Positions 523 through 35,595 of a DNA stretch of 35,595 nt are shown piece after piece. A program made the position numbers and the translations under genes. The notes under the pieces are model-generated. The model saw only the letters and a program-made list of their open reading frames with translations. It was not told the origin of the DNA and did not search any database. The stretch is from positions 1 to 35,595 of IMG/VR virus record IMGVR_UViG_3300049218_000483, one strand, 5' to 3'. This DNA comes from a virus. How positions within the stretch are numbered: the first letter of the stretch is position 1; each line of letters opens with the position of its first letter.

Positions 523-544
523 TTGGGGGAATCCTTGTGAAGGG

Positions 545-756
545 TATCCGCGGATTTCGCAGATTAACGCAGATAAAAGTCTTTGAATCACCACAGAGAC
601 ACGGAGGCGCGGAGGAACAGCCGAAAGAAAATGCCCGCGGCGCTTCTGAATTCATGGCCGCCGGAGGCAATAGGATTTCGGTTTTCCTCCGTGCCTCTGT
701 GCCTCCGTGGTGAATTCAAAGGCTTTCATTTACGAAATCTGCGAAATCCGCGGATA
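545..756. repeat. Nested palindrome, copy 1
   Basis: An outer pair of arms (545-574 and 729-756), built from repeats of CGCAGATT/AATCTGCG and ending in ATCCGCGGAT, encloses an inner pair (585-616 and 684-719). The inner arms are built from CCACAGAGACACGGAGG-type repeats and their complement. The loop carries GCCCGCGGCGCTTC, also found in other copies. It fills the gap between the spanin gene and the small gene at 763-942 and contains no credible gene. Confidence 0.9.
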
Positions 757-1348: not shown

Positions 1349-1816
1349 TCAGAGAGCGGATGAAACGGCGGCGGACAACATTTCGCTATCGTACAGGCAG
1401 CGGCCATTTTCCTCGGTGATGAAGCCGGGGAGGACGGCCAGCAGGGTGGCGAGGTCGGTCAGGTCGATGCGGGCCGAGGGATCGATGCCGGAATGGGCGG
1501 AGACGGTCCGGGCATAGGAATCGGGGTCGTTACGGTCGGCGGCGGGGGCCCAGCCCCAGACCGGATCGCCGATGATGTCGGCGATGGTGTGGAGGCCATG
1601 GCGCGTGTTATCGATCACCAGCTGTTTCGCCATAGCGCGAATGCCGCTGGCCGGGGTGTCGTAGCGGCCGAAACGGGGCGTGTAGGCCTCATTTTCGGGA
1701 ACCTGCTCGATGCCGATCTGGCCGCGCCAGGATCGGGCCGGATCGGCGACATAGTCGATATTGCCGGGATTGTTGTTGCGCTCGCCCCGCGTGGGCGTCA
1801 AGCGGGGATCGGTCAT
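1349..1816 (-). CDS. Phage peptidoglycan hydrolase / endolysin-like protein, 155 aa
   Basis: The N-terminus contains RGERNNNPGNI (residues 10-20), a signature of a small phage family often labelled structural protein P5 or virion lytic transglycosylase. In that family the motif is followed, as here, by conserved FGRYDTPASGIRAMAKQL and a later segment with GWAPAADRNDPDSYARTVS. Such proteins cleave or bind the glycan strands of the cell wall. Here the gene lies upstream of holin-like and spanin genes, so I take it as the lysis muramidase. There is no signal peptide, so export would need the holin. A GAGG precedes the ATG. A virion-associated role remains possible. Confidence 0.75.
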   Translation of the reverse strand: MTDPRLTPTRGERNNNPGNIDYVADPARSWRGQIGIEQVPENEAYTPRFGRYDTPASGIRAMAKQLVIDNTRHGLHTIADIIGDPVWGWAPAADRNDPDSYARTVSAHSGIDPSARIDLTDLATLLAVLPGFITEENGRCLYDSEMLSAAVSSAL

Positions 1817-5331: not shown

Positions 5332-5621
5332 GAATTCAAAAATTTCACCACAGAGGCGCGGAGGCGCGGAGGAAAGCCCTTGAATTATTGCCCGCGGCGC
5401 TCATGACTTCACGGTCGGCCCCCGCTTTCGCACCAGGGCGCTCACGCATCTGTCATTTCGCTCATATATCGTCATGCGCGGGCTTGACCCGCGTACCCAC
5501 GCGTTGCCGCGAGGTGCGAAACTCAGGCCTTTGCACTGGCGGATAGGCGTGGGTACGCGGGTCAAGCCCGCGCATGACGGGCGATTAAATTGAAGGGATT
5601 TTCATCTGCGAAATCCGCGGA
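5332..5621. repeat. Nested palindrome, copy 3, disrupted by another palindrome
   Basis: The left inner arm (5332-5373, CACCACAGAGGCGCGG type) and the loop motif TTATTGCCCGCGGCGCTC are present. The right inner arm is missing; an unrelated perfect palindrome (5470-5579) lies where it should be. The right outer arm (5605-5621, TCTGCGAAATCCGCGGA) is retained. It looks like one repeat family inserted into another. Confidence 0.85.
5470..5579. repeat. Perfect 33-bp inverted repeat (CGTCATGCGCGGGCTTGACC type)
   Basis: Arms at 5470-5502 and 5547-5579 are perfectly complementary and separated by 44 bases. Each arm also contains a shorter internal hairpin (GCGGGCTTGACCCGC). Intergenic repeats of this type (CGTCATGCCCGGGCTTGACCCGGG and variants) are common in alphaproteobacterial chromosomes, which supports a resident prophage. 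Confidence 0.9.
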
Positions 5622-5628
5622 TGAACAT

Positions 5629-5777
5629 TCATGCCGATCGCCACAGGGTGAAGAATTTGCGGGCGCGGCCGGCGAGTTGGCCGGACTCGCCGTCATCCTC
5701 GGTGACGCCGACATGGATGAGGGCGTGGATGATGCGGGGCCAGGCTGTGATGATCGCGCCATGGGCGAAGGCGCGGC
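5629..5777 (-). pseudogene. 3' fragment of NlpC/P60 peptidase gene (duplicated end)
   Basis: In frame this segment encodes the last 47 or so residues of the NlpC/P60 tail peptidase (AFAHGAIITAWPRIIHALIH onward). It ends FFTLWRSA where the intact copy ends FFTLWG. It has no start region. It is 135/137 identical to the end of the intact gene and marks the left flank of the TIGR04255 cassette. The downstream palindrome and hub gene make this the likely original end of the peptidase gene, separated from its body by the inserted cassette. Confidence 0.85.
5641..5777. repeat. Left copy of 137-bp direct repeat flanking the TIGR04255 cassette
   Basis: Identical to 8000-8136 except for two substitutions (CAGGCTGTG versus CAGGCAGTG, and GCGCCATGG versus GCGCCGTGG). 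The sequence comes from the 3' end of the NlpC/P60 gene. Confidence 0.95.
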
Positions 5778-7993: not shown

Positions 7994-8425
7994 CTAACCC
8001 CACAGGGTGAAGAATTTGCGGGCGCGGCCGGCGAGTTGGCCGGACTCGCCGTCATCCTCGGTGACGCCGACATGGATGAGGGCGTGGATGATGCGGGGCC
8101 AGGCAGTGATGATCGCGCCGTGGGCGAAGGCGCGGCCCCAGCGGTAGAGCACGAAATCACCCGGGCCCGTCGGCGCCGCGACTTCCGACGCGTGCATGGC
8201 GACGATGTCGAGATAGCGTTCGGCGTCGCGGTGCAGGTGCCAATCGGCGGGATAATGATCGATGGAGAAATCTGGGATCAGCCCCGCCGAACGGTAGACG
8301 GCCAACGGCAGCATGGCGCAGTCGGCGCCCGCGCCCCTGACGCCGGCGGCGTGGTGATAGGGCGTGCGCAGCCAACGCCGCGCCTCGATCACCACGGCCG
8401 CGCGCTCGGACGACTCGGTGGACAT
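7994..8425 (-). CDS. NlpC/P60-type tail peptidase (GTA gp14-like), 143 aa
   Basis: The catalytic Cys lies in GAGADCAML (Cys36) and the His in FAHGAIIT (His102), with the preceding PGDFVLYR segment, as in NlpC/P60 cysteine peptidases of phage tails. The N-terminal RRWLRTPYHHAAGVRGAG is also typical. The enzyme would cut peptidoglycan during DNA entry. In GTA-type phages it sits between the DUF2163 hub and the giant hub/fibre gene; the order is kept here, but a three-gene cassette intervenes. The C-terminal codons come from one copy of a duplicated 137-bp segment and end LWG, whereas the copy at 5629 ends LWRSA. Confidence 0.88.
   Translation of the reverse strand: MSTESSERAAVVIEARRWLRTPYHHAAGVRGAGADCAMLPLAVYRSAGLIPDFSIDHYPADWHLHRDAERYLDIVAMHASEVAAPTGPGDFVLYRWGRAFAHGAIITAWPRIIHALIHVGVTEDDGESGQLAGRARKFFTLWG
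8000..8136. repeat. Right copy of 137-bp direct repeat flanking the TIGR04255 cassette
   Basis: The partner of 5641-5777, with 135 of 137 positions identical. It forms the functional 3' end of the NlpC/P60 gene. Outside 8000 the two flanks share nothing obvious, so 8000 is a sharp junction. Confidence 0.95.
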
Positions 8426-8946: not shown

Positions 8947-9480
8947 TTAGGTATGCGGCCGTTCCGACCCTGTACACCATTTCTTTGCCAGATATTCGAA
9001 CTCGCAAAAGAAGGTCGGGGTTTGCGATAAACGGCGGACTTCCATGACGAAGGGTTTCAGGGATATCCAATCAGCGACGAGGGTGGTCCGGTAGGAACGC
9101 CTATATAATGCCTCGTCCAGGGTATGCTCGCGAATGCCAATGGCGACGAACTCATAAAAATTCAGCGTCGCGCGAATGGCGCGTCGTTCAGGCGAGTCAG
9201 GCAGGTGATTGCCAACCCAATCCAGCAACTTCTGCTCGTTGCGAATTTTGATGAACAGGCGACGATCTTCGATGATGATCGCGTTCGTCTGTTCCATCAG
9301 AAGCAAATCAAGCGTTGCGCGCCGACGCGCGATGGACCGATTTGTCCAGAGGGTGAAAACCAGCCCCGTGGCGGATGCAATTATGGCCCCTCCTTGGAAG
9401 AAGAGGCCATAAGTTTGTATCTCCTCGGGCGTAAGGGGTATTTAGCCGCCCCAGCCTTCGCGGGAAAGAAGGATCGTCAT
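8947..9480 (-). pseudogene. DUF4760-like membrane protein interrupted by an early stop codon
   Basis: A strong ribosome-binding site (AGGAGGAAACC) precedes the ATG at 9480. That frame runs only 12 codons (MTILLSREGWGG) before TAA at 9442-9444. The same frame then continues open to 8947. It encodes a membrane helix (GLFFQGGAIIASATGLVFTL), a basic stretch with ARRRATLDLLLMEQ, and a soluble part with LNFYEFVAIGIREHTLDEAL and TLVADW, features I associate with DUF4760 proteins. Without the TAA it would be about 177 residues. The alternatives are a TTG start at 9306, giving a 119-residue protein lacking the membrane helix, or stop-codon readthrough. A recent nonsense mutation is simplest. Confidence 0.6.
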
Positions 9481-20769: not shown

Positions 20770-20779
20770 TTTTATTTTT

Positions 20780-20981
20780 TATCCGCAGATGTCGCAGATT
20801 TCGCAGATGAAAGCCTAAGAATTTTACCACGAAGGACACGAAGTATGAAAAGAATTATTTGCTACGCAGCCATGAATTGATACACGCAGTAGGTAATGAT
20901 TCATATGCCTCCTTAGTGTTCTTAGTGCCCTTCGTGGTAAAATTCATAAAATCTGCGTTAATCTGCGAAATCTGTGGATAA
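20780..20981. repeat. Nested palindrome, copy 5
   Basis: Outer arms (20780-20809, ATCCGCAGATGTCGCAGATT type, and 20949-20981) enclose inner arms of a different sequence (20820-20843 TTTTACCACGAAGGACACG and 20921-20944). The loop has ATTATTTGCTACGCAGCC, a variant of the GCCCGCGGCGC loop. It separates the plus-strand 100-aa gene from the protease gene. Confidence 0.9.
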
Positions 20982-20999
20982 ACTCATCCACGGATTACT

Positions 21000-21794: not shown

Positions 21795-21822
21795 GGGGTT
21801 CTCCTGGGATATGAAATGATTG

Positions 21823-21966
21823 AACCGCCAAGTCGCCAAGGACGCCAAGATGAATTAACCGCAGAGGCGCAGAGGCGCGGAGAAAAGAATATAATTTTCT
21901 TATTTCTCCGCGCCTCTGCGTCTCTGTGTTAATTTTTGTCTTGGCGTCTTGGCGTCTTGGCGGTTT
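21823..21966. repeat. Nested palindrome, copy 6 (third arm type)
   Basis: Outer arms (21823-21850 AACCGCCAAGTCGCCAAGG type, and 21939-21966) are built from a nine-base CGCCAAGA unit. Inner arms (21855-21882 TTAACCGCAGAGGCGCAG type, and 21906-21932) are the GAGGCGCGGAG type. It lies between portal and protease genes. Confidence 0.92.
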
Positions 21967-21973
21967 AATTTCT

Positions 21974-23840: not shown

Positions 23841-24056
23841 TTATCCACAGATGTCACAGATGACACAGATGAAAGCCTTTGAAGATTATGAATTAACCAC
23901 AGAGGCGCGGAGGCGCGGAGCCTGAATATGAATTACTCGCTGCGCGGCTGATGAATTCATGAGCGCCGCGGGCAATAATTCAGTGGCTTTCCTCCGCGTC
24001 TTAGCGGCTTCGCGTTTCATTCATGCATCTGTGTCATCTGTGACATCTGTGGATAA
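23841..24056. repeat. Nested palindrome, copy 7
   Basis: Outer arms (23841-23871, TTATCCACAGATGTCACAG type, and 24022-24056) enclose inner arms (23891-23920 AACCACAGAGGCGCGG type and a degenerate right partner at 23991-24017). The loop has TTACTCGCTGCGCGGCTGAT and its inverse GCCGCGGGCAATAATTC. It precedes the 23343-23810 gene. Confidence 0.9.
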
Positions 24057-24066
24057 ACCTCATGCG

Positions 24067-24132
24067 TTACGCGGTGCGGCGGCGTATTGTAGCGGCGGTG
24101 GGGCTGTCGAGGGTGATGGGCCAACCGGACAT
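24067..24132 (-). pseudogene. Chimeric mini-ORF: start of one neighbour fused to end of the other (21 aa)
   Basis: The frame begins MSGWPIT, exactly like the 155-residue gene downstream, behind the same AGGAG site. It ends TLDSPTAATIRRRTA, nearly identical to the C-terminus of the 176-residue gene upstream (TLDSPTAPTTRRRTA). It sits between two nested palindromes. It looks like the scar of a duplication followed by an internal deletion that joined the ends of two neighbouring genes. Confidence 0.6.
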
Positions 24133-24160
24133 GGGCTTTCTCCTGCTGGCGGTGAAGAAT

Positions 24161-24398
24161 TTATCCGCGGATTTCGCAGATTTTCGCAGATTTTATGAAT
24201 AAGAGATTCACCACGGAGGCACAGAGGCGCGGAGGAAGAATATAAATTATTCGCTGCGCGGCCATGAATTCATGAAGCGCCCCCCCGCCTTCGCGAGGGC
24301 AGGCTCAAAAGCATAATTCATCGGCTGTTCTTTGTGTCTCCGTGCCTTTGTGGTGAATATTTTCTTAATCTGCGAAAATCTGCGTAATCCGCGGATAA
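24161..24398. repeat. Nested palindrome, copy 8
   Basis: Outer arms (24161-24192 TTATCCGCGGATTTCGCAG type, and 24365-24398) enclose inner arms (24207-24235 CACCACGGAGGCACAGAGG type, and 24330-24357). The loop has TTATTCGCTGCGCGGCCAT. It lies between the 176-residue gene and the chimeric mini-ORF. Confidence 0.92.
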
Positions 24399-24400
24399 CC

Positions 24401-24931
24401 TCACGCGGTGCGGCGGCGGGTTGTGGGGGCGGTGGGGCTGTCCAGGGTGAAGGTCATGGCGGGGGTTTCGCCGTCGAGTTTGGCGGCGGTCAAGGTGGCG
24501 CCGGATTGCGAGACGTTGCCGAGGATCGCCAGGATGCCATAGAGCAGCTGCGCCAGCGTGGCCGGCTGCCCGTTGGCGGCGTAGCTTTCGGCGAGCGCGC
24601 CGGTGAGCACGGCGAGATCGGCCAGGCCCAGCGCGGCGGGATCATAGGGGCTGAACGCGACCACCTGGCATTTGACATCGGCCGGATCGGCCCCCGACGC
24701 GGCGGCGTGGAGGAGCAGGACGCCATCGGTCGTGACGTCCGACCCCGCGGGCGTCAGGCTGTACCAACCGTCGCCGAGCTCGGCCACCGCCCCGGCCGGC
24801 GCGGCGAAGGCGCCGCCGTTGCGGGAGATGAGAACCGAGGGCGCGGCCCCGGTAAGCCCGGTGACGTGATCCGCGGACGCGGCGAGAAAGAACGGCACCG
24901 GCCGCGCATCGCCGTTCAATATCAATTGCAT
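24401..24931 (-). CDS. Unrecognised phage protein, 176 aa, possibly fibre/baseplate associated
   Basis: The N-terminus has the beta-rich course of phage baseplate or fibre accessory proteins (PVPFFLAASADHVTGLTGAA, SVLISRNGGAFAAPAGAVAE, LGDGWYSLTPAGSDVTTDG). A middle VVAFSPYDPAALGLADLAVL resembles the end of such domains, and the tail is Gly/Thr-rich and basic (RRRTA). The GWY-L element is common in proteins placed near tail fibres. It lies between the toxin-antitoxin region and the portal region. A likely AAGGA ribosome-binding site precedes the ATG. Confidence 0.6.
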   Translation of the reverse strand: MQLILNGDARPVPFFLAASADHVTGLTGAAPSVLISRNGGAFAAPAGAVAELGDGWYSLTPAGSDVTTDGVLLLHAAASGADPADVKCQVVAFSPYDPAALGLADLAVLTGALAESYAANGQPATLAQLLYGILAILGNVSQSGATLTAAKLDGETPAMTFTLDSPTAPTTRRRTA

Positions 24932-25348: not shown

Positions 25349-25942
25349 CTACTGGTTGATCACCCCGTCCGTCGGCTTCGCGCTGGTCGGCGGCGGGGGG
25401 CTGTTCCGGAACAGAGGGGCATAGAGTCTGTCGAGATGGGCCGCCCGGATGGTTTCCTGGATCAGGGCGGCGTCGCTGGCGGTCGTCGCGATCTTCGCGC
25501 CAAGCGATGATTTACCGAACAGATCGGGCCGCTCCATCGCCAGTTTCAGCAACCGCTTGGTCGGCTTAGACGGTCGAATCTGGCCAGCCTCGTATTTCTC
25601 GAACGATTTTTCCCCGGTGCCGAAGATTTCGCCGGCATCACGCTGCGTCAAGCCGCAGCGCACCCGAATGGCCCGGATCGCGAGCGGGGTAAAAAGCTCC
25701 CCCTTCACGATCGCCTCGGCTGTCCGCCTGGCCATCTCCGCCACCAGGTTATCGTCATCGACCAGCTGGCCGTCCAAATCCGCCGGATCATCGAGCGAAT
25801 ACCACCAGCCGGGCTGAAGGTATTCGAAGGTCTGGCCTTCGACCGTCAGCGCAACCAGCTTCTCACCTCGGATCATCGGCCGGCCGCTTTCCGGGCTGGG
25901 CATCGCATCCGGGTAATTCCTTGGGTTCTTAGCCATGGTCAT
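25349..25942 (-). CDS. MqsA-family antitoxin without the usual zinc site, 197 aa
   Basis: The C-terminal half has the XRE-type helix-turn-helix of MqsA (AIRAIRVRCGLTQRDAGEIF, then EKSFEKYEAGQIRPSKPTKR). The N-terminal half corresponds to the zinc-binding toxin-neutralising domain. However, the CPxCGxxM knuckle is replaced by SPESGRPM (Ser16, Ser19), and no other cysteine pair exists. The only Cys is in the DNA-binding domain. The start ATG overlaps the toxin stop (ATGA), which fits the toxin-first order of E. coli mqsRA. It would neutralise MqsR and repress its own promoter. It is longer than E. coli MqsA (131 residues) because of a C-terminal extension with GAKIATTASDAALIQETI. Confidence 0.82.
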   Translation of the reverse strand: MTMAKNPRNYPDAMPSPESGRPMIRGEKLVALTVEGQTFEYLQPGWWYSLDDPADLDGQLVDDDNLVAEMARRTAEAIVKGELFTPLAIRAIRVRCGLTQRDAGEIFGTGEKSFEKYEAGQIRPSKPTKRLLKLAMERPDLFGKSSLGAKIATTASDAALIQETIRAAHLDRLYAPLFRNSPPPPTSAKPTDGVINQ

Positions 25943-26244
25943 GCCTCTTTGAAACTGATCAGGTAAAACGCGCCGGCCGCGTCGAGCGTGAATTTCACAT
26001 ACAGTTCCTTTCCGCTCAGCGTGGGCTTGTAGACATCCTGCCAGATTTGATGATTGGCATAGGAGGTCATGGACTTGTCGAAATCGGCCTGGCTCAAAGC
26101 CTGGATCGCGGCGACCACACCCGAATCGTCCAATTTGAGGGCATCGGCCCCTTGCTTGGACGTGAAAGACCGGTTCAGCGTGGTTGGGTCGGCGAACGCC
26201 GCCTTGATGTCTTTCAACCGGAAATGTGGTTTTCGCTTCTCCAT
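25939..26244 (-). CDS. mqsR: MqsR-type mRNA interferase toxin, 101 aa
   Basis: The start MEKRKPHFRLKDIKAAF and the core QADFDKSMTSYANHQIWQDV and KELYVKFTLDAAGAFYLISF match E. coli MqsR (98 residues) closely in order and spacing, including the catalytic region around KSMT-Y and IWQDVY. MqsR cleaves mRNA in a RelE-like fold. The start chosen matches the E. coli N-terminus; an upstream MMDFS start is possible. The antitoxin gene follows with a four-base overlap. The pair is a type II toxin-antitoxin module that may stabilise the prophage. Confidence 0.9.
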   Translation of the reverse strand: MEKRKPHFRLKDIKAAFADPTTLNRSFTSKQGADALKLDDSGVVAAIQALSQADFDKSMTSYANHQIWQDVYKPTLSGKELYVKFTLDAAGAFYLISFKEA

Positions 26245-26286
26245 TGAAAAGTCCATCATAGGGCATAACACACATAGACTCAACGA

Positions 26287-26301
26287 CCCCCATAATGGGG
26301 G
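26287..26301. promoter_or_regulatory. Palindrome upstream of mqsR, candidate operator
   Basis: CCCCCATAATGGGGG is a perfect inverted repeat with a five-base centre, 42 bases before the toxin start. MqsA-type antitoxins bind palindromes in their own promoter, so this is a reasonable operator candidate. The sequence differs from the E. coli AACCT-AGGTT operator. Confidence 0.45.
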
Positions 26302-26369
26302 CATACCCATGATCGTCGCGCAGCGCCCCGCGCCGGGATGGCGCCCTCGCCCGAAACGATGAACGCGCG

Positions 26370-27299
26370 TTAACCGTTGACCACGCGGGCGCGGCTGTAG
26401 CCGGCGAGGGTCGTTCCGCCGCCCATCGCGGCGCCGATCTGCTTCGCATAGGCCGCGCCGATGCGGGCATGGCCGAAGGCGAGCGGGTGGACGCCGTCAT
26501 AGGTCCATTGGAACGGGTTGCCGCTGTAATTGAAAGCGATCGAGAACACGCCGGCGGGGAACAGGGATGTGGCGTCAATGAAACAGACATTGGCGTCGCC
26601 GGAGGACGCCTTATAGGCCGCCACCGCCGCGGACAGGTTGCCCTCATACGCGCCCATGCACTCGACGATCACGAAGAGAATGGTGGACGGCCCGGCGGCG
26701 GCGCGCATGGCGGTGAGCCACGCCCCGCACGCCGATTGGATGGCGGAGCCGGCGACGCCGCCGCGCAGATCGTTGCCGCCATGGATGACCGCGATGTAAT
26801 CGAGCCCCGCGAAGCTCCGGCTCCGGCCGATGCTGTGGGTTGCATAGAACGTGTCGAACGCCGGCGCGTTGCTTCCGCCGGACACCGTCCACCCTGAGCC
26901 GCCATAGCCGAGCTGCCCGTATTCCGCGCCGAGCGCCAGGGCGATGTCGCAGGCGAAGCTGACCGTTGCGTCATCCGAGCCGTCCGTGTTGGCGTGGCAG
27001 CCCTGGGTGATGCTGTCCCCATAGATCAGCATGCGTTTGGAGCGCAGCGCCGCCGGGGAGACCGAGGCCGAGCCGTCGATCGTGACGCCGTTGATCCGCA
27101 CGACATTGGTCGGCGACACGCCGCTCGACCCCGCCACGTCGCCATAGCTGTTGGTTTGCGACGATTGCCGGAAATACAGCTCAACGGAATAGGTTGTGGT
27201 GGGGGTGAGGGATGCGGACAGGACGAGCGAGGTCTGAGACGGCGCAAGCTGAACATCGGTGAACGCGCCGCCGTTGAGCGAATACCGCAAAACCGGCAT
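26370..27299 (-). CDS. SGNH-hydrolase fibre tip, second module without own N-terminal fibre, 309 aa
   Basis: The catalytic elements are GDSITQG (Ser96), HGGNDLR (Asn176) and DGVHP (Asp268, His271), which are blocks I, III and V of SGNH/GDSL esterases. The last residues (TLAGYSRARVVNG) repeat the end of the preceding fibre. The frame is open upstream through ALSLSLDNATTSGFPSGD to the TAG of the fibre gene with no start codon other than the ATG at 27299, and that ATG has a poor ribosome-binding site. The missing start suggests that it is the C-terminal part of a longer fibre, now a spare tip or made by readthrough. As a tip enzyme it would deacetylate a host surface sugar. Confidence 0.75.
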   Translation of the reverse strand: MPVLRYSLNGGAFTDVQLAPSQTSLVLSASLTPTTTYSVELYFRQSSQTNSYGDVAGSSGVSPTNVVRINGVTIDGSASVSPAALRSKRMLIYGDSITQGCHANTDGSDDATVSFACDIALALGAEYGQLGYGGSGWTVSGGSNAPAFDTFYATHSIGRSRSFAGLDYIAVIHGGNDLRGGVAGSAIQSACGAWLTAMRAAAGPSTILFVIVECMGAYEGNLSAAVAAYKASSGDANVCFIDATSLFPAGVFSIAFNYSGNPFQWTYDGVHPLAFGHARIGAAYAKQIGAAMGGGTTLAGYSRARVVNG

Positions 27300-27353: not shown

Positions 27354-29864
27354 CTAACCATTGACGACGCGCGACCGCGAGTAGCCGGCGAGGGTTGCGG
27401 GGCCGCCGCTGGGCGTAAGGGCAACGATCACTTCAGTCGCCCACATCGCGCCCGCCGCCTGGTCACCGTAGTCGTTTGGATGCACGAGATCGGCGCTGCG
27501 CTGTAGACTATTTGCGCGCCGCTGGAAATAATTAAACGGCCCGAGCGGATTGACATGAAAAACCGTGCTTCCATTTGAAAGCGCGGTCATCTCGGCATCG
27601 TACTGGATCAGTAATGCTGAGTTTATCACACTTTCGTCGCCCGACGCTTCGTTTTGAGACATCACTCCGAACAGATGGATTGACTTCAGCGTGGGCACAT
27701 TCGCCTGGATATAGGCGATGATCGCCGCCATGTTCGATCGATAGGTCGATGCCGAGTTGGCGACGCTTTCCTGTGCGTCCGCGCCGCCAAGTTCGGTTAC
27801 CACGCGCGTCACGCCGGCAGCGGCCCAGGCAGTACAAGCCGCAGGAAGATACGATCCCCCAGGTAACCAATTGTTCGAATATGATCCTGATACCGAGTAG
27901 TTCAGCGACAGGTTAGTGTTTGTCCCGTTCGGGCCGTTGGTCGGTGCGCCACCATACCATTCCTTCGACGGCATGCCGAAATTCAACTGGTCGATCATTG
28001 CTGAGAAAGGCGACTGAACCGTCGAATAGGCACCCTCTTCGATGCTGTCCCCGAAGCCGCCGACGATTTCCAGCGCGCTTGACGCCTTGGTTGTGACGTG
28101 GACTTGCGCCGTGAGCACCTGCGCGCCGCCGGTCGTATCCGTGTATTGCAGGGCGTAATAATAAGTCGTTGCCGCCGCGATGCTCGTATCGATGTAGGCT
28201 TCTGTCGTCGCGCCGCTGATCGCCGTTCCATTCGATCCTGCCGTCGTCGACCTGTACCATTGATAGGTATAAGTTCCACTGCCGCCGATGGCGTTGCTGG
28301 CCGAAAGCTGTACGGTCTTGACGCCAACATAGGTAGCATAGGCGGTGCCGGCGGAGAATGTCGCGCTGGTGGTGAGCGAGGCCTGCGAGGAAAACGCCGT
28401 GCTCGAATGCGAATCGGTGACTTCAATGACGTAGTAATAGGCCGTTGACGGCGAGAGGCTGGTGTCGTTCAGAGTTAGCGACGTTCCGCCGGAAATCAGA
28501 TAGCCGGACCCGGGCGTGAACCCTGGCGTCGTGGACCGATACCACTGGTACGAATAGGCAGGATAGCCGCCGCTAGCCGATGTAGACGTTAGGGTCGCCG
28601 TCGTTGAGCCGATATTCGACGGCGTGACGCTGCCGGCCGTCAGCGAGGCAGGGGCGGATGTTGTGACGCTAATCTGCGCGGCGGTTACCGTCGCGCTTGC
28701 CGAATCGGTACTAACCAACTTGTAATAATAGGTGGTCGACGGCGACAGGCCGCTGTCCATGTAGATCAAAGTAGAGGCGCCGGAAATGATGTTGCCGGAG
28801 CCCGGCGTGAACCCGGATGTGATGGACCGATACCATTGATATAAATAGGGCGACGTGCCGCCCGATGCGCCGGTGTTCGTGACGCTGCAGCCGGTGCTAG
28901 TGATCGAGGACGCGCTCGAGGTGCCGGAGGTCAGGGCACCGACCGATGTGGTGATCGAGGCTTGGCTCGACCATGCGATTGCGCCGGTGGAATCCGTGAC
29001 GACCTGAAGATAGTAATAGGTCGTACTTGAGTTGAGCCCACTGTCGTTTAGGACAAGCGAGGTTGGGCCGGAAACCATATTTGATGATTGTGGGACGAAG
29101 CCCGCGCTGGTCGAGCGATACCACTGATAGGTGTATGGGCTGGAGCCGCCGGTCGGCGCGACGGCGCTGAGCGTCGCGGTCGAACCGGTAATGCCAGAAG
29201 AAGTTATCGCTCCGGCGGCCAGCGACGAGTTGCCGAATGCCTCCAGATTGTCGATGCCGTTCCCGCCGCTGCCTCCGCTGTTCGCAAATCTGAAAGCTGC
29301 GTAGCCGGGCGTGTCCAGCGACAAATCGGTGATGTTGACTTGGTACCCACCCGGCTCGCTTGATCCGGTCAGCCAGACCTTTGCGCTGATTGTGGACCCG
29401 ATGGCGGCGACGCGGAACGCAAGCGATGTCCCGGTGCTCCAGGCGATTCCGCTGACAGTCTGCGAACCGCCAACCGCGCCTGCCGACCCGCCTACTGATT
29501 TGTAAAGCTGGAACGTGATCGCGCTTCCGCCACTGCTCCCTGTGATCAAGAAGCCGTACCAGTTTTGGGCGCTGCTGGACCCGCTATATCGGACGAGCGG
29601 CGTGAACCCGTTTCCCGTTCCGTCGAACGATTTGCTGACGAAATACAGCCCCATATCGGCGGTGGCCGGGATCGACACGCCGCCACCCCCCGCCAGAACG
29701 ACAACATCGCCGTCGGCACGGGATACGCCAGATAGGATGTTCGGCGACGAATAGGCCAGCGACCCGCCGGCCGTGACCTGCCATGTACCGACGACGGATG
29801 TAAACCATACCGGCAGCGCGCCGGCTATATCCGTGTCGAAATTGTCGAGGAAATACAGGTTCAC
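27354..29864 (-). CDS. Tail fibre with Ig-like repeats and SGNH-hydrolase tip, 836 aa
   Basis: The start is GTG, behind GAGGGG. The N-terminal 210 residues resemble a concanavalin/LamG-like lectin domain (FLDNFDTDIAGALPVWFTSV, GNGIDNLEAFGNS). Four Ig/FN3-like repeats of about 90 residues follow, each with YxYQWYRS and TTYYY. The C-terminal 230 residues are an SGNH-hydrolase domain with GDSIEEG (Ser607) and DLVHP (Asp792, His795). The usual GxND block is GGAD (position 695 Ala, not Asn), so activity may be altered. The end TLAGYSRSRVVNG matches that of the next module. The protein probably binds and cuts a polysaccharide receptor. It is placed upstream of the portal rather than after the hub gene. 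Confidence 0.85.
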   Translation of the reverse strand: MNLYFLDNFDTDIAGALPVWFTSVVGTWQVTAGGSLAYSSPNILSGVSRADGDVVVLAGGGGVSIPATADMGLYFVSKSFDGTGNGFTPLVRYSGSSSAQNWYGFLITGSSGGSAITFQLYKSVGGSAGAVGGSQTVSGIAWSTGTSLAFRVAAIGSTISAKVWLTGSSEPGGYQVNITDLSLDTPGYAAFRFANSGGSGGNGIDNLEAFGNSSLAAGAITSSGITGSTATLSAVAPTGGSSPYTYQWYRSTSAGFVPQSSNMVSGPTSLVLNDSGLNSSTTYYYLQVVTDSTGAIAWSSQASITTSVGALTSGTSSASSITSTGCSVTNTGASGGTSPYLYQWYRSITSGFTPGSGNIISGASTLIYMDSGLSPSTTYYYKLVSTDSASATVTAAQISVTTSAPASLTAGSVTPSNIGSTTATLTSTSASGGYPAYSYQWYRSTTPGFTPGSGYLISGGTSLTLNDTSLSPSTAYYYVIEVTDSHSSTAFSSQASLTTSATFSAGTAYATYVGVKTVQLSASNAIGGSGTYTYQWYRSTTAGSNGTAISGATTEAYIDTSIAAATTYYYALQYTDTTGGAQVLTAQVHVTTKASSALEIVGGFGDSIEEGAYSTVQSPFSAMIDQLNFGMPSKEWYGGAPTNGPNGTNTNLSLNYSVSGSYSNNWLPGGSYLPAACTAWAAAGVTRVVTELGGADAQESVANSASTYRSNMAAIIAYIQANVPTLKSIHLFGVMSQNEASGDESVINSALLIQYDAEMTALSNGSTVFHVNPLGPFNYFQRRANSLQRSADLVHPNDYGDQAAGAMWATEVIVALTPSGGPATLAGYSRSRVVNG

Positions 29865-30086: not shown

Positions 30087-31352
30087 ATGAAAAGCGTAGT
30101 GGGATTTACCAAAGTGCATATTAGCCGCCGACCCGCTCCTAAAAGCATCGGTGAAATCAGTAAAGAAAATAAAGGGCTCGGACCCGGTTTCGATTTTCTC
30201 CGTGTTGCACTCGCCTTTGGCGTCGTGTTCATTCACGCGGAAACGGTAGCAACCGGACAGAACTATGAATCCTCACGTGTCATATGGCTACCTACTTATG
30301 CAATCCTGATCATGTTCTTTGGGCTGAGTGGTTTTCTGATCACCGGTAGCGCCCAGCGTTTAAGCCTAAAGAACTTTATGATCAATCGGGGCATGAGAAT
30401 ATTTCCAGCTCTTTTTATCGAAATCACTATGTCGGCACTTATTCTTGGTGCCATATTTACTAATATTCCCGTTCTAGAATATTACCTGCAAGGCGGGACA
30501 TGGCGTTATTTTACGAATGTATTTGGTTTGATTAATTATCATCTGCCAGGAGTCTTCACCCATAACCCAAAAAACACTGTCAATTGGTCCCTCTGGACCG
30601 TTCCGTATGAACTTGGTTGCTATGTCATCATGGCCGGATTAATGATCTTTAAGCTGGTGCACCGTCGCAGGGCTATCCTAGTTATCGTCGCGATCTTTCT
30701 TGCACTTGGCTTTATCGTTCCAATGTTCATCACCGATCTGCAATCGCAAGATATATTAACGCAGACTTTGGGGCCGATCTTTGTAGACCGGGGCTCCAAG
30801 CTCTACGTCTCGTTCCTGCTCGGCATCGCGGCCTATCTTTATCGGGATCGCATTCCCTATAGCCCAAGGCTGTTCGCCGGGTGCGTGGCGTTCTGCGCAG
30901 CTTTGTCGCTGCTGCGGCCGGCGCCGTGGATGACGATTCCGCTGCTGAACCTGATCGTCGGGCCGATGGCGGTGTATATCACGATCTTCATCGGCCATAC
31001 CCGGATCCCCAGGCTGCCGATCTATGGGCGCGGGGATTACTCCTATGGCGTCTATCTGTATGGCAACCCGATTCAGCAATCGGTGCGGGCGGCGCTGCCG
31101 TGGACGAATAACGCGTGGCTCAACCTGCTGTTTTCGGTGCCCCTGATCACGCTGTTCGCCATGTTCTCGTGGCACTGCCTTGAAAAGCAGGCCCTGAAGC
31201 TGCGCAAGCGGTTTTCCTTCGTGGCCCGCGTGCGCGGCGTGGAGGGGCCGGGGGAAAGCAAGGTCGGGGCGCCGCCGCCGGTGGAGGAACAGGCGATGGC
31301 GCATGCTTCGCCGGAGACGGGAGACGCGGCCAGGGTTTCACCCTCGGCGTAA
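30087..31352 (+). CDS. Acyltransferase-3 family membrane protein (OafA-like), 421 aa
   Basis: About ten membrane helices are visible. Arg39 and His50 lie in FDFLRVALAFGVVFIH, the hallmark of the family, and INRGMRIFPALFIEITMSAL and LGRGDYSYG-like motifs later (IYGRGDYSYGVYLYGNP) fit too. Such enzymes O-acetylate surface sugars, so phage copies often change the host receptor to block reinfection. The first 700 bases are AT-richer than the last 560, as if two sources were joined near 30790. The end is 4 bases from the convergent acyltransferase. The cytoplasmic tail after residue 380 is disordered and Pro/Glu-rich. Confidence 0.87.
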   Translation: MKSVVGFTKVHISRRPAPKSIGEISKENKGLGPGFDFLRVALAFGVVFIHAETVATGQNYESSRVIWLPTYAILIMFFGLSGFLITGSAQRLSLKNFMINRGMRIFPALFIEITMSALILGAIFTNIPVLEYYLQGGTWRYFTNVFGLINYHLPGVFTHNPKNTVNWSLWTVPYELGCYVIMAGLMIFKLVHRRRAILVIVAIFLALGFIVPMFITDLQSQDILTQTLGPIFVDRGSKLYVSFLLGIAAYLYRDRIPYSPRLFAGCVAFCAALSLLRPAPWMTIPLLNLIVGPMAVYITIFIGHTRIPRLPIYGRGDYSYGVYLYGNPIQQSVRAALPWTNNAWLNLLFSVPLITLFAMFSWHCLEKQALKLRKRFSFVARVRGVEGPGESKVGAPPPVEEQAMAHASPETGDAARVSPSA

Positions 31353-31356
31353 AAGG

Positions 31357-32373
31357 CTAAGCGGTGCGCAGGACGTATCGAACGGAACGTCCGCCATATT
31401 TCTCAACAAACGCGTTGGATAGCGCCGCGACGCCGAGAACCGCCGCGATCGATCCGACGAAAAAGACCAGCAATTCATCATGCCCGACCGCGCGGGCGGC
31501 CATCCGGACCGTGAGCAAAGTCGGCACCTGAACCAGATAGATCGAGTAGGACACCCGGCCAAGCCAATGCAGCGGCCCCCAGGACAGCGCACCGGCCACG
31601 GCGCCCCTGTCCCACGCCAAAGCGCCGACCATCGGCACAAGCATCGCGACGGCCAGAACGTCCACCCCCAGAATCGCGGCGGCGACCAGGCCGATCAGCG
31701 GAATGAGGAAATATCGCACCCGCGCCAGCCACGCCGGAAACACACCCCGCGCCACGATGACCCCGATCGCAAATTCCGACAGGCACCGCGATAACGGCAG
31801 CCAGCCGCGGGAGCTGGAGGCGTCCATGCGCCATCCGCTGTCACCGGCCACGATCAGGACGCCGGCGACGCCCAAGGCGCCCAGACACGCGGCCGCCCCG
31901 GCCCGTCTCAAGCCCAGGAGCGCGAAGGCGGGAAACAACAGGCTCGCCGCCCATTCCGTCGAAATCGACCAGTCCGGCGGATTGATGGATGTGCCGGAGG
32001 CGGGGAATATCTTCCACATATGAACGAGCAGCGCCTCATCGACCGCGTAGCGCCAATAGGGCAGATCGTGGTTCACGGCCAACGCCGCCGTCGCGCAGGC
32101 GAGAACCAGAAGATGCAGCGGAAACAACCGCGCGATCCGTTTCACGAGGAACGGCCAGTACGATCCGAGCGGGTCGGCCGTGAACTCGGCGCCGTGCCGC
32201 CGCGCCAGGATGAAACCGCTGAGAACGAAGAAGAAATCGACCGCCAGATAGCCCCGGCTGATGAACGGAATATCATCCCAACCCGGCGTCGGCGACCACC
32301 GGCCGAGATGGAACAGCAGCACCCACATGGCGAAGACGCCGCGCAGCGATGTCAGTGATTTGATTTCCCTCAT
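31357..32373 (-). CDS. Acyltransferase-3 family membrane protein, 338 aa
   Basis: The family signature is LRGVFAMWVLLFHLG with Arg11 and His22. Further conserved elements are AVDFFFVLSGFILARR, WPFLVKRIARLFPLHLLVLA and DWSISTEWAASLLFPAFALL. About ten membrane helices are predicted by eye. The start MREIKSLTSL is the usual one for the family; twelve more codons upstream are open but not needed. It is convergent with the first acyltransferase. The two are only distantly alike, so they are not recent duplicates. Confidence 0.88.
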   Translation of the reverse strand: MREIKSLTSLRGVFAMWVLLFHLGRWSPTPGWDDIPFISRGYLAVDFFFVLSGFILARRHGAEFTADPLGSYWPFLVKRIARLFPLHLLVLACATAALAVNHDLPYWRYAVDEALLVHMWKIFPASGTSINPPDWSISTEWAASLLFPAFALLGLRRAGAAACLGALGVAGVLIVAGDSGWRMDASSSRGWLPLSRCLSEFAIGVIVARGVFPAWLARVRYFLIPLIGLVAAAILGVDVLAVAMLVPMVGALAWDRGAVAGALSWGPLHWLGRVSYSIYLVQVPTLLTVRMAARAVGHDELLVFFVGSIAAVLGVAALSNAFVEKYGGRSVRYVLRTA

Positions 32374-32482
32374 GGGGTTGGAATAGCACCGGATTTCCGG
32401 GTTTTCCATCGTTTGATGGGCGTCGACGTGACGGCGGGCCGTCCGCCGTCAGCGTAAAGGCATCCGCGCCGGAGCGTGGGGC

Positions 32483-33088
32483 TCAGCCGGTCTGGGACGG
32501 CTGAATCGGCGGCGGCTCCGCGCGCGGCGACGTTTCAAGCGGCGTGGATTGACCCGGCCGTCCGCGCGCCGAATCGATAAACGCCTTTGCCACCGCCATA
32601 ACCGGCACGCTTAAAAAAAGGCCGGCCACAAGCTCCGATCTCAGATAGACGGCAATCAGCGCGCCCACCATCGCCAAAATCGTCGTCGCCGCGCCCAAGT
32701 AATGGCCGCGCTTTTGATCGGCATGCAAAAAGTTCTGAGATCGGTTGGCTTCCGCGATTTGCGCTTCCTGTAAGCGCTCCGCCATGCCGATCATCCTGTC
32801 GAACGTGCCCGGCAGAATCTTCTCGTAGCGTTCGACCGCTTCCGGCGGCGGATAAGGGCCTTGCCAGGATTGCAAGGATTGCTGAATTTGCGCGGTTAGC
32901 ATCGGAACGTGAACAGGCTCTCCTATCGGAATGGAGCCAGCCAGATTTGGAACCACGCCGTCCCGCGCAAGCATCTGGGCTAAACTGTGCGGCGGGATCT
33001 GTACCGCTGGACTCGGTTGCGGCCGAGGGGCCGCTTGCGGCTCAGGAGGCTGGCTGTTCGGTTCCGGCGGCGAGGGATTGTCCGTCAT
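32483..33088 (-). CDS. DUF2335-like membrane protein, 201 aa
   Basis: The N-terminal third is Pro-rich and disordered (PPEPNSQPPEPQAAPRPQPS). Then come YPPPEAVERYEKILPGTFDR and MIGMAERLQEAQIAEANRSQ, a pattern typical of DUF2335 proteins (P--L--Y---PG---RI--MAE-Q--HR). Two membrane helices follow (AATTILAMVGALIAVYL and VAGLFLSVPVMAVAKAF) and a Pro-rich C-terminal tail. The family is of unknown function and often found on mobile elements. The start overlaps the end of the 71-residue gene by 47 bases. Confidence 0.75.
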   Translation of the reverse strand: MTDNPSPPEPNSQPPEPQAAPRPQPSPAVQIPPHSLAQMLARDGVVPNLAGSIPIGEPVHVPMLTAQIQQSLQSWQGPYPPPEAVERYEKILPGTFDRMIGMAERLQEAQIAEANRSQNFLHADQKRGHYLGAATTILAMVGALIAVYLRSELVAGLFLSVPVMAVAKAFIDSARGRPGQSTPLETSPRAEPPPIQPSQTG

Positions 33089-33257
33089 CGACCACTTGTG
33101 CGTATGAATGGCTGAGCGCCAATCCCACCTGGGCAAAACTCAAAGGAACACTGTACGATCCGATGTAGGTGGAATACGAGACCGGAGAAGCATAGATCGC
33201 CACCGGGCTCGCCAGTCCAGCCCAGAACGCCGAGCGAAAGACCGCGTTTCGGTTCAT
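33042..33257 (-). CDS. Small secreted or membrane protein, 71 aa
   Basis: The N-terminus is hydrophobic after MNRNAVFRSAF (WAGLASPVAIYASP). It is followed by SYSTYIGSYSVPLSFAQVGL and a polar end. Similar small proteins with WAGLA-P--YA-P--Y--Y---SV--SFA-VG occur in alphaproteobacterial prophages, as I recall. The 3' part overlaps the DUF2335 gene in another frame. AAGAGA precedes the ATG. Confidence 0.65.
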   Translation of the reverse strand: MNRNAVFRSAFWAGLASPVAIYASPVSYSTYIGSYSVPLSFAQVGLALSHSYAQVVDDGQSLAAGTEQPAS

Positions 33258-33597
33258 ATCGATCTCTTAACCATTTATCGGTTCGTCGCACACTATATCG
33301 GAATTCCCGCGCGTGTTTCCAAGCCGAATCATAGACAGGTTCTTTCCGCCCCTGTTAGCGGAAAATGCATATCCGCGATTCTTCGTCACCCCGTGATCGG
33401 CCCCACCACGGGAATGCGGTCCACCGCCAGATAGAAGCTGTCGAAAATCGGAAGCGGCCGCCAGCCCGTAGCGGGTTTCCTATGGTCTGTCGGGCATGCG
33501 CTTGAAGGCGGGCCGTCGGCCGTGACCTCCCATGTCCCGGCGTGTGGGGTGAACCGCGCCGGCGGCGCGCCGGGCTATCTCGGGCCAGGAGTCCAGC
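33258..33597. other. Intergenic region between the DUF2335 unit and the coiled-coil array
   Basis: About 340 bases hold no gene I can support. The AT-richer part near 33260-33330 (TTAACCATTTATCGGTTCG) may be the promoter for the 33257 gene. The region 33440-33590 (AAGCGGCCGCCAGCCCGTAG, later CCCATGTCCCGGCG) is GC-rich and looks like coding remnants without an intact frame. Confidence 0.4.
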
Positions 33598-33927
33598 TTA
33601 AGGGCGAAGCAGCCGAAAGAGGCCGAGCGTGCCGCCCATCACGGTGAACACGACGCTGAGGACGATGATGACAAGGTTCCATGTCGTCGGCATCTGGCTG
33701 ATCCTGCCCTCGATCCCGGCGACGCGCTCGGCAAGGGCGGACAGGTCAGCCTTCGTCGCCATGCGCTCTTCGATCCGCACAAGCGTCAGGTCGATCCGCG
33801 CCAGCGTGGCGCGAGTGTCCCGCGATTCCGATTCCAGCGCGTCGATCCGTGCGTCCATGTCCGGATTATGGGGACCGCCGCCGCCTGGCGCGAGCGGTTG
33901 GGGCGGACGGGGCTCGGCTGGACTCAC
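33598..33927 (-). CDS. Coiled-coil/one-helix membrane protein, paralog 5 of the array, 109 aa
   Basis: The shared plan is a Pro-rich head (MSPAEPRPPQPLAPGGGGPH), then NPDMDARIDALESESRDTRA, a coiled coil (LVRIEERMATKADLSALAER), and a C-terminal membrane helix (NLVIIVLSVVFTVMGGTLGL) ending FRLLRP. A C-tail-anchored coiled-coil protein is the likely form. It resembles small phage proteins of the XhlA or DUF1640 kind. Shortest paralog. Confidence 0.75.
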   Translation of the reverse strand: MSPAEPRPPQPLAPGGGGPHNPDMDARIDALESESRDTRATLARIDLTLVRIEERMATKADLSALAERVAGIEGRISQMPTTWNLVIIVLSVVFTVMGGTLGLFRLLRP

Positions 33928-33942
33928 GCCACGCGGCCGAGA

Positions 33943-34290
33943 TCAGGGATGGAGCAGCCGGACGATCCCGAACGCGCCGCCCATGACAGTGAAGACCAAG
34001 GCGATGACGAACCCGAGAAGCTGAAGCGTGGTCGGCAGCTTTTCCACCATGCCTTCGACCTTGGCGACGCGCTCGGCCACCGCCGATATGTCGGTTTTTG
34101 TCGAGAGGGCGAGCGCGGCCAAATCAGCCTTCGTCGCCATGCGCTCTTCGATCCGCATAAGCGTCAGGTCGATCCGCGCCATCGCGGCGCGGGTCTCCCG
34201 CGTTTCCAATTCCAGCGCGTCTATGCGTGCGTCCATGCGCGGATTATGGGGACCGCCGCCGCCTGGGGCAAGCGGTTCGGCCGAACTCAC
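33943..34290 (-). CDS. Coiled-coil/one-helix membrane protein, paralog 4 of the array, 115 aa
   Basis: Same plan as its neighbours: MSSAEPLAPGGGGPHNPRMD head, DALELETRETRAAMARIDLT, coiled coil with MATKADLAALALSTKTDISA and VAERVAKVEGMVEKLPTTLQ, membrane helix (LLGFVIALVFTVMGGAFGIV), and RLLHP end. Compared with the 109-residue paralog it has a two-heptad insertion (ALALSTKTDIS). Confidence 0.78.
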   Translation of the reverse strand: MSSAEPLAPGGGGPHNPRMDARIDALELETRETRAAMARIDLTLMRIEERMATKADLAALALSTKTDISAVAERVAKVEGMVEKLPTTLQLLGFVIALVFTVMGGAFGIVRLLHP

Positions 34291-34305
34291 GCCAGGTCGC
34301 CGAGA

Positions 34306-34674
34306 TCAGGCACGGAGCAGCCGGACGATCCCGAACGCGCCGCCCATCACTGTGAAGACCAAGGCGACGATGAACCCGAGAAGCTGAAGCGTGGTCGGCA
34401 GCTTTTCCACCATCCCTTCGACCTTGGCGACGCGCTCGGCCACCGCCGATATGTCGGTTTTCGTTGCGAGGGCGAGCTCGGAAATTCTGGCGTTCACGGC
34501 TGCGATATCGTCCTTCGTCGCCATGCGCTCTTCGATCCGCACAAGCGCCAGGTCGATCCGCGCCATCGCGGCCCGAGTCTCCCGCGGTTCCAGTTCCAGC
34601 GCGTCGATGCGTGCGTCCATGTCCGGATTATGGGGATCGCCGCCGCCTGGGGCAAGCGGATCGGCCGAACTCAC
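34306..34674 (-). CDS. Coiled-coil/one-helix membrane protein, paralog 3 of the array, 122 aa
   Basis: Head MSSADPLAPGGGDPHNPDMD, coiled coil with MATKDDIAAVNARISELALA and the shared ISAVAERVAKVEGMVEKLPT, membrane helix LLGFIVALVFTVMGGAFGIV, and RLLRA end. The 15-base spacing to both neighbours is the same across the array, as expected of tandem duplication. The last 60 residues are nearly identical to paralogs 2 and 4. Confidence 0.78.
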   Translation of the reverse strand: MSSADPLAPGGGDPHNPDMDARIDALELEPRETRAAMARIDLALVRIEERMATKDDIAAVNARISELALATKTDISAVAERVAKVEGMVEKLPTTLQLLGFIVALVFTVMGGAFGIVRLLRA

Positions 34675-34689
34675 GCCAGGCCGCCGAGA

Positions 34690-35130
34690 TCAGGGACGGA
34701 GCAGCCGGACGATCCCGAACGCGCCGCCCATCACTGTGAAGACCAAGGCGACGACGAACCCGAGAAGCTGGAGCGTGGTCGGCAGCTTTTCCACCATGCC
34801 TTCGACCTTGGCGACGCGCTCGGCCACCGCCGATATGTCGGTTTTCGTTGCGAGGGCGAGCGCGGCCAAGTCATCCTTCGTCGCGAGCGTGTTCAGCCGC
34901 TCTTCGATCCTGGAGACCCGCTCCGAAACGCCGGCAATGTCACCCTTCGTCGCAAGCACGCTCATGCGCTCGTCGATCCGCGCCAGCGTCACGTCGATCC
35001 GCGCCATCACGGCCCGAGTCTCCCGCGTTTCCGATTCCAGCGCGTCGATGCGTGCGTCCATGTCGGGATTATGGGGACCGGCGCCGCCCGGGGCAAGCGG
35101 ATGGGCCGGACGGGGTTCGGCTGGACTCAT
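34690..35130 (-). CDS. Coiled-coil/one-helix membrane protein, paralog 2 of the array, 146 aa
   Basis: Head MSPAEPRPAHPLAPGGAGPH, then LARIDERMSVLATKGDIAGV and SERVSRIEERLNTLATKDDL, two extra coiled-coil segments relative to paralog 3, before the shared ISAVAERVAKVEGMVEKLPT and membrane helix. The extra segments appear to be duplications of the SERVxxIEERxxxLATKxDL unit. Confidence 0.78.
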   Translation of the reverse strand: MSPAEPRPAHPLAPGGAGPHNPDMDARIDALESETRETRAVMARIDVTLARIDERMSVLATKGDIAGVSERVSRIEERLNTLATKDDLAALALATKTDISAVAERVAKVEGMVEKLPTTLQLLGFVVALVFTVMGGAFGIVRLLRP

Positions 35131-35145
35131 GCCGGGCGGCCGAGA

Positions 35146-35595
35146 TCAGGGATGGAACAGACGAAAGAGGCCGAGCGTGCCGCCCATAACGGCGAATACC
35201 AGGGTGACGATGATCGTGATCAAGGTCCAGGTGGTCGGCAGATTGCTGATCTTGCCGTCCATCCTGGCGAGATCGACCTTGGTCGACAGGGTGAGCGCCG
35301 CGATGCTTTCCCTGGTTTCGCCGCGTAGCGCGCCGATCCCCTCCCTGGTTTCGTTGCGCAGCGCGCCGATCCCTTCCCTGGTTTCGTTGCGCAGCGCGTC
35401 AATCGCTTCCCTGGTTTCGCTGCGTAGCGCGCCAATCGCTTCCCTGGTTTCGCTGCGTAGCGCGGCCAAATCCTCCTTCGTCGCCATGCGCTCTTCGATC
35501 CGCATAAGCGTCAGGTCGATCCGCGCCATCGCGGCGCGGGTCTCCCGCGTTTCCAATTCCAGCGCGTCTATGCGTGCGTCCATGCGCGGATTATG
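35146..35595 (-). CDS. Coiled-coil/one-helix membrane protein, paralog 1 of the array, 5'-partial
   Basis: The gene runs past the right edge of the window, where the HNPRMDARID context shows that the usual head lies beyond. The coiled coil is expanded by five 11-residue repeats (RSETREAIGAL, RNETREGIGAL and variants), encoded by 33-base tandem units at about 35305-35465. Eleven-residue repeats form long right-handed coiled coils. The C-terminal membrane helix (TLITIIVTLVFAVMGGTLGL) and FRLFHP end are like paralog 5. Confidence 0.78.
   Translation of the reverse strand, partial: HNPRMDARIDALELETRETRAAMARIDLTLMRIEERMATKEDLAALRSETREAIGALRSETREAIDALRNETREGIGALRNETREGIGALRGETRESIAALTLSTKVDLARMDGKISNLPTTWTLITIIVTLVFAVMGGTLGLFRLFHP

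Follow-up and report, generated by a model that had tools for sequence, protein, structure and literature searches.

The window, meaning the whole stretch of DNA analysed, comprises all 35,595 bases of a linear IMG/VR virus record from a soil phage, and its right end carries five consecutive minus-strand ORFs of one family (g1-g5), identified from the ORF list and a profile search. We interpret this array as a cargo (moron) gene amplified in tandem by a tailed phage of Alphaproteobacteria and encoding putative trimeric inner-membrane stalks that perhaps exclude competitor phages, and assign this reading as a whole a probability of about 0.38. A phage cargo gene and a small coil-plus-anchor protein with β-layer motifs are both known kinds; a tandem, mosaic, length-graded phage array was not found elsewhere in the collections or open-licence literature searched.

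All five genes were recovered by one profile, itself built with them, at E-values of 4e-37 to 8e-48, and on sequence similarity g1-g5 are paralogs (Table 1). GC content by codon position in the array genes (~0.7/0.5/0.8) is coding-like, and homologs elsewhere confirm the minus frame rather than the long plus-strand ORFs. The near-equal 15-base spacing reported in the first-pass annotation proved exact in all four gaps, a regularity attributable to tandem duplication. g1-g4 are complete; g5 is cut by the contig end, so its start and Gly/Pro-rich head lie outside the window. Of the four promoter-like matches found, three fall inside the array, where they coincide with the repeated heads and probably reflect coding sequence.

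Table 1. Positions of the array genes, their gaps and repeats, and other features of the window
Feature	Position	Strand	Details
Rz-like gene	1-594		window lysis gene
Endolysin-like gene	1349-1816		window lysis gene
Fibre-like protein with GDSL-like region	27354-29864	-	836 aa; after cargo slot
Second acyltransferase	30087-31352	+	profile match; strand opposite to array
OafA-like O-acyltransferase	31357-32409	-	profile matches; same strand as array
DUF2335 membrane protein	32483-33136	-	next gene downstream; Pfam 37.0 bits, cut-off 25; syntenic with L155
Decayed fibre-gene fragment	33513-33581	-	like 5' end of fibre-like gene, 77% over 69 nt; just downstream of array
g1	33598-33927	-	109 aa from a GTG start; 23-residue stalk, type A anchor, one loose β-layer-like motif
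g2/g1 intergenic gap	33928-33942	-	15 nt; homologous 15-nt gaps at 34291-34305, 34675-34689, 35131-35145
g2	33943-34290	-	115 aa from a GTG start; 34-residue stalk, type B anchor, two loose motifs
Internal copy of contig-end repeat	34128-34248	.	within g2
g3	34306-34674	-	122 aa from a GTG start; 41-residue stalk, type B anchor, two motifs (MATKDD, LATKTD)
g4	34690-35130	-	146 aa from an ATG start; 60-residue stalk, type B anchor, three motifs
g5	35146-35595	-	≥149 aa, truncated at the 5' end by the contig end; 82-residue stalk, type A anchor, two loose motifs
Five 11-residue (33-nt) units in g5 stalk	35296-35460	-	33-nt period, 4.9 copies
Exact 121-nt repeat at contig end	35475-35595	.	copy of 34128-34248; assembly break point or recent gene conversion

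Each protein combines a Gly/Pro-rich head with a conserved first coil, a stalk whose length varies, and a single C-terminal hydrophobic segment, an anatomy that is well supported. The shared proline-rich head described earlier is visible in g1-g4 (for example, LAPGGGGPHNPDM), with that of g5 lying beyond the contig end. The proposed C-terminal membrane helix is matched in all five proteins by one hydrophobic segment with 19-residue means of 2.3-2.5 and none elsewhere; hydrophobicity windows revealed no signal peptide or N-terminal hydrophobic segment. Stalk length, measured between the fixed points ERM and PTT, differs from that of g2 by -11 residues in g1, +7 in g3, +26 in g4, and +55-7 in g5. 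These differences are all in frame, leave all five frames intact, and sit in the unit-bearing stalk, and g5 does contain the five 11-residue repeats ascribed to one of the genes. The first-pass picture of five tandem paralogs whose coiled coils are graded by insertion of whole units holds for the array itself and for the steps, mostly 7s and 11s; it does not extend to g4, whose step of 26 is not one whole unit, and g5 is incomplete. Assignment of the stalks as coiled coils is likewise partly sustained: ILMV residues recur with a period of 3.4-3.8 residues, a signal reached by 2, 4, 3, 0, and 19 of 500 shuffles for g1-g5, respectively, and the same shuffle test with Ala counted as core gave no signal in any of the five. 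Stalk length varies across the whole family and not in the array alone, so graded length by itself is no evidence for a designed set.

The stalks are enriched in β-layer motifs of the general type (M/L)(A/S)TKxD, scored in a loose form ([ILVM][AST][ST][KR]x[DE]) and in the strict published form ([aliphatic]-A-T-K-[polar]-[DE], with Gly counted as polar). Together they hold 10 loose sites against 0.14 expected and 6 strict sites against 0.009 expected, values reached by 0 of 2000 shuffles in either case. Strict motifs occur in g3 (two), g4 (three), and g5 (one); g1 and g2 match the loose form only. Outside the window, even the loose motif is present in just 5 of 22 family members, and three phage singletons have none. 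The paper defining the motif describes β-layers formed in parallel trimers, and its authors do not expect the motif in other coiled coils (PMC4786415). Formation of trimers by the stalk chains is thus moderately supported by motif content, and in such trimers unequal chain lengths would work in favour of rods with a single length each.

Structural evidence is consistent with helical stalks. The family profile matches the MATKDD protein 5apz in the PDB (E 8e-6), partly through its GCN4 adaptor. AF2 models, made as single chains for nine sequences, included a weak one for g4 (mean pLDDT 69) in which the head is disordered and three helices make up the stalk, followed by the anchor helix; the stalk helix is broken at two of the three motifs and continuous at the third. 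For g5, one 113-residue helix followed by an anchor helix (pLDDT 84) was predicted, the long helix running through the MATKED site with no break at motifs. Fold prediction, proposed earlier as a check, yielded a helical stalk and anchor in both proteins, with low confidence in g4 and without motif breaks in g5. A Foldseek structure search returned no match.

The array proteins resemble the DUF1640/CCDC90-MCUR1 family (PF07798; yeast Put6/Put7) in their coiled-coil stalk, C-terminal membrane anchor, and β-layer motif of the same consensus, features described for these integral membrane proteins of prokaryotes and mitochondria, in which the motif sits at the stalk start (PMC4786415). In the array, the motif, strict in g3-g5 and loose in g1 and g2, lies at the start of the C-terminal stalk, and all five proteins carry the anchor. 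Put6 and Put7 are reported to be matrix-facing and to cooperate in one hetero-oligomeric complex (PMC7519068), a feature that the paralogous phage array may share. The array proteins differ in their short Gly/Pro head and their phage-borne tandem arrangement, and they miss the PF07798 cut-off of 33.5 bits (g5 18.4, g1-g4 not listed; the chromosomal relative L146 reaches 31.8), with 2 of 13 family members matching at E≤0.01. Tcar0761-type α/β coiled coils (PDB 5apz; Hartmann et al. 2016) share MATKDD-type units inside the coiled coil; the array motifs, however, are spaced rather than direct 9-residue repeats, and the match involves in part the GCN4 adaptor of the crystal construct. The phage proteins of phrog_6136, with no assigned function, are matched by g1-g4 at E 1e-6 to 1e-8 over the head and first coil only (~50-60 residues) and weakly by g5 (0.003); this family has no curated cut-off. 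No array gene matched DUF1515 (PF07439), for which the singletons of G011 and G024 reach 20.6 and 18.6 bits, respectively, below the cut-off of 22.2.

Members of the family are sporadic in phages. A search with the major capsid gene gave 523 loci in IMG/VR, of which 80 were kept, and 27 in genomes; many belong to Alphaproteobacteria. Among 50 virus records (the L009 record and 49 of the 80 retained capsid relatives), five have a family match at E≤0.01 and four hold credible members (G011, G024, G030, and G050). The weak match in G026 (E 0.002) was rejected, the ORFs read there being unrelated. G011, G024, and G030 each carry a single gene between a Gp84-type baseplate-hub gene, which we take to be DUF2163, and a minor tail gene read as NlpC/P60-like, a reading unconfirmed by Pfam. 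Across the scored loci (54 rows, with some contigs counted twice), the length of this cargo slot ranges from 3 to 1623 nt. That the gene occurs only here and there between conserved phage genes, and in two separate slots, argues for cargo rather than core virion machinery.

In bacterial genomes, members were detected in 2 of 25 capsid-bearing genomes (E≤0.01) and, scoring the best 11 candidates per genome, in 5 of 385 genomes in the class (E≤0.001) and 8 of 397 in one order (E≤1e-4); three small orders gave 1/9, 1/4, and 1/23 genomes, all re-finding known ones. One genome, G337, has three members on three contigs. Chromosomal members whose neighbours were read stand alone beside ordinary genes, not in defence or phage loci, and some possess long repeated stalks of their own (L146, 245 aa). 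One member, L144:7363-7866, lies between genes that by eye resemble pyruvate dehydrogenase E2 and lipoamide dehydrogenase, an unusual setting for a gene unrelated to them. No fetched locus around a family match, apart from the window, has two copies side by side. Searches of IMG/VR with g4, g1, g5, the five-gene alignment, a degenerate 21-mer, and a 23-mer found no second array, returning a distant singleton (L009) and a chance match in the wrong frame (L105), and genome contigs queried with the five-gene alignment likewise contained none; the searched collections may leave out the window's own record, which bears on the lack of an identical array elsewhere. No homolog was detected in annotated phages by tblastn with g4, g1, g5, and one singleton, and plasmids yielded one Azospirillum locus. 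Titles and abstracts of the open-licence literature contained no description of a phage array of such genes.

The array occupies a second variable position. In 11 relatives (L154-L160 and L162-L165), an ORF read as the large terminase, profile-confirmed as TerL in both of two tested, precedes the corresponding slot, which extends to an O-antigen-type acyltransferase/fibre and holds various small ORFs or nothing; the array profile matched none of these 11 slots. L155 has no array, and its alignment to the window (65%) covers the DUF2335 gene plus ~120 nt on the upstream side of that gene. The 119-aa ORF at L157:2878-3237, just after the terminase, displays by eye a Pro-rich head, a coil, and a C-terminal membrane helix; it matched neither the array profile nor the family libraries. 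In the window, the two acyltransferases near the array both match Acyl_transf_3, in agreement with the surface-modifying neighbours noted earlier.

For the cargo reading, we propose that the proteins would be made in the lysogen or infected cell as parallel trimers that their anchors fix in the inner membrane, leaving head and stalk on the cytoplasmic side. The lack of a signal peptide together with a terminal anchor makes a cytoplasmic stalk with an N-in tail anchor more likely, a topology for which the matrix-facing yeast DUF1640 proteins offer a reported precedent (PMC7519068); against this, the C-terminal RLLRP end could suit the opposite orientation. The trimers could act as inner-membrane scaffolds or spacers holding a target at a set distance. 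The benefit, the weakest step, may perhaps be to keep competing phages out at the stage of DNA entry, in parallel with the O-antigen-type acylation that the neighbouring enzymes would carry out. P22 SieA and HK97 gp15, described as inner-membrane exclusion proteins of prophages (PMC10883804), exclude phages by other means and are analogous solely in the proposed way of working, a small cargo gene for an inner-membrane protein, rather than through any demonstrated sequence relation. Array genes had no match of note among defence families.

Sequence comparison within the array reveals uniform heads joined to diverged anchors. Heads (111 nt) are 88-100% identical among the five genes, and anchors (90 nt) fall into type A (g1 and g5, 76% identical) and type B (g2-g4, 93-97%), with 67-69% identity between types. 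Third-position differences between g1 and g2, g3, and g4 number 4, 3, and 6 of 37 in heads against 14, 13, and 13 of 30 in anchors (Fisher p 0.002, 0.001, and 0.03; the pairs are not independent), indicating that heads were homogenised or anchors exchanged. The type A anchor resembles that of the singleton in phage record G030 (77% identity for g1), and a plasmid protein from Azospirillum aligns with the stalk and anchor of type B (56% over 59 residues). The combination of uniform heads with two diverged anchor types points to an array shaped by recombination, which may have grown by unequal crossing-over and gene conversion, swapping stalk length and anchor under one head. It provides a clear case, within a phage cargo array, of one domain kept uniform beside another diverging.

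Several explanations compete at the level of how the array arose. The contig terminates in an exact 121-nt copy of part of g2, and beyond it no exact repeat in the array is longer than 74 nt; the assembly thus appears to have stopped in the one repeat long enough to stop it. Since the contig ends inside this repeat, five copies are a lower bound, as the suggestion that the array extends beyond the window had anticipated, and the g5 head is possibly not its own. Collapsed or misjoined copies, above all at the g5 head, would account for this ending and for g2 and g5 heads that are identical yet joined to anchors 68% alike. We nevertheless consider an artefact of assembly very unlikely for the array as a whole, given that g1-g4 are distinct, share no exact repeat above 74 nt, and include a mosaic gene, g1, even without g5. 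Amplification of a repeat-prone gene as a by-product of recombination, with little or no selection on copy number, is a stronger competitor, if still rather unlikely: adjacent copies are confined to this locus among those examined, head Ka/Ks is 0.38-1.0, and the same contig holds further repeats and duplications, but the five intact frames with purely in-frame size differences, an anchor Ka/Ks of 0.25-0.82 (few sites), and the kept motifs and anchors speak against it. A more elaborate possibility, which we regard as doubtful, is a recombination-driven generator of stalk variants, in which gene conversion would keep the head uniform and unequal exchange at ATKxD/11-residue units and between the two anchor types would produce graded trimeric inner-membrane spacers, letting the phage population vary the reach or partner of one head, for example against changing competitor phages.

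Other alternatives concern function. The array proteins, like the singletons, could serve in tail-tip assembly or as virion proteins, as the position of all three close phage singletons between baseplate-hub and minor tail gene might suggest. This is improbable: the gene is credible in just 4 of 50 records and its slot varies from almost nothing upward, which implies that it is not essential there, and the array is located elsewhere. XhlA, a small phage membrane protein (PF10779), has a coil-plus-anchor design. An XhlA-like lysis accessory aiding the holin would fit a weak g4 match (20.0 bits, E 8e-4). In B. subtilis, vesicle production is reported to need xhlA, xhlB, and xlyA, the membrane protein XhlA being predicted to work with the holin XhlB (PMC5589764). 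Such a role seems doubtful as well, because the g4 score misses the cut-off of 34.7 bits, even a weak match occurs in 1 of 13 family members, the window's lysis genes lie ~32 kb away at the opposite contig end, leaving the array without a lysis cassette context, and five copies of a lysis helper would be unexpected. The first-pass proposal of surface or periplasmic rods of graded length survives in part: membrane-anchored rods are supported by paralogs with 23-82-residue stalks, and acyltransferases do adjoin the array. Surface exposure, however, is not supported, there being no signal peptide or any other hydrophobic window, and we judge it highly improbable.

The length series with swappable anchors poses the question of whether stalk length or anchor type alters protein action. 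We know of no settled bacterial role for DUF1640-like membrane stalks. Such stalks are described from both prokaryotes and mitochondria (PMC4786415), and a phage amplifying one constitutes a compact natural experiment.

Further features of the contig were recorded. A DUF4760 gene (8947-9306, minus strand; E 2e-27) occupies the tail-gene cargo slot and is 84% identical to an ORF between the portal and capsid genes of the relative G017 (L029, L163). Two copies of the minor tail gene's 3' end, which form a 137-nt direct repeat (98.5%) at 5641-5777 and 8000-8136, bracket a 2.2-kb block of low GC (0.48-0.49) with at least three foreign-looking ORFs, an arrangement that may mark a cargo insertion route. 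Related intergenic repeats, often self-complementary and like a small mobile or palindromic element, lie at 545-756, 1160-1351, 5344-5579, 20778-20988, 21819-21969, and 23841-24401. Among the fibre genes, on the minus strand at 25349-26647 and 25939-26310, are an MqsR toxin (Pfam E 2e-26) and an MqsA-type antitoxin (E 1e-12). The C-terminal tail TLAGYSRxRVVNG is common to the GDSL protein (26370-27299) and the 836-aa fibre-like protein (27354-29864).
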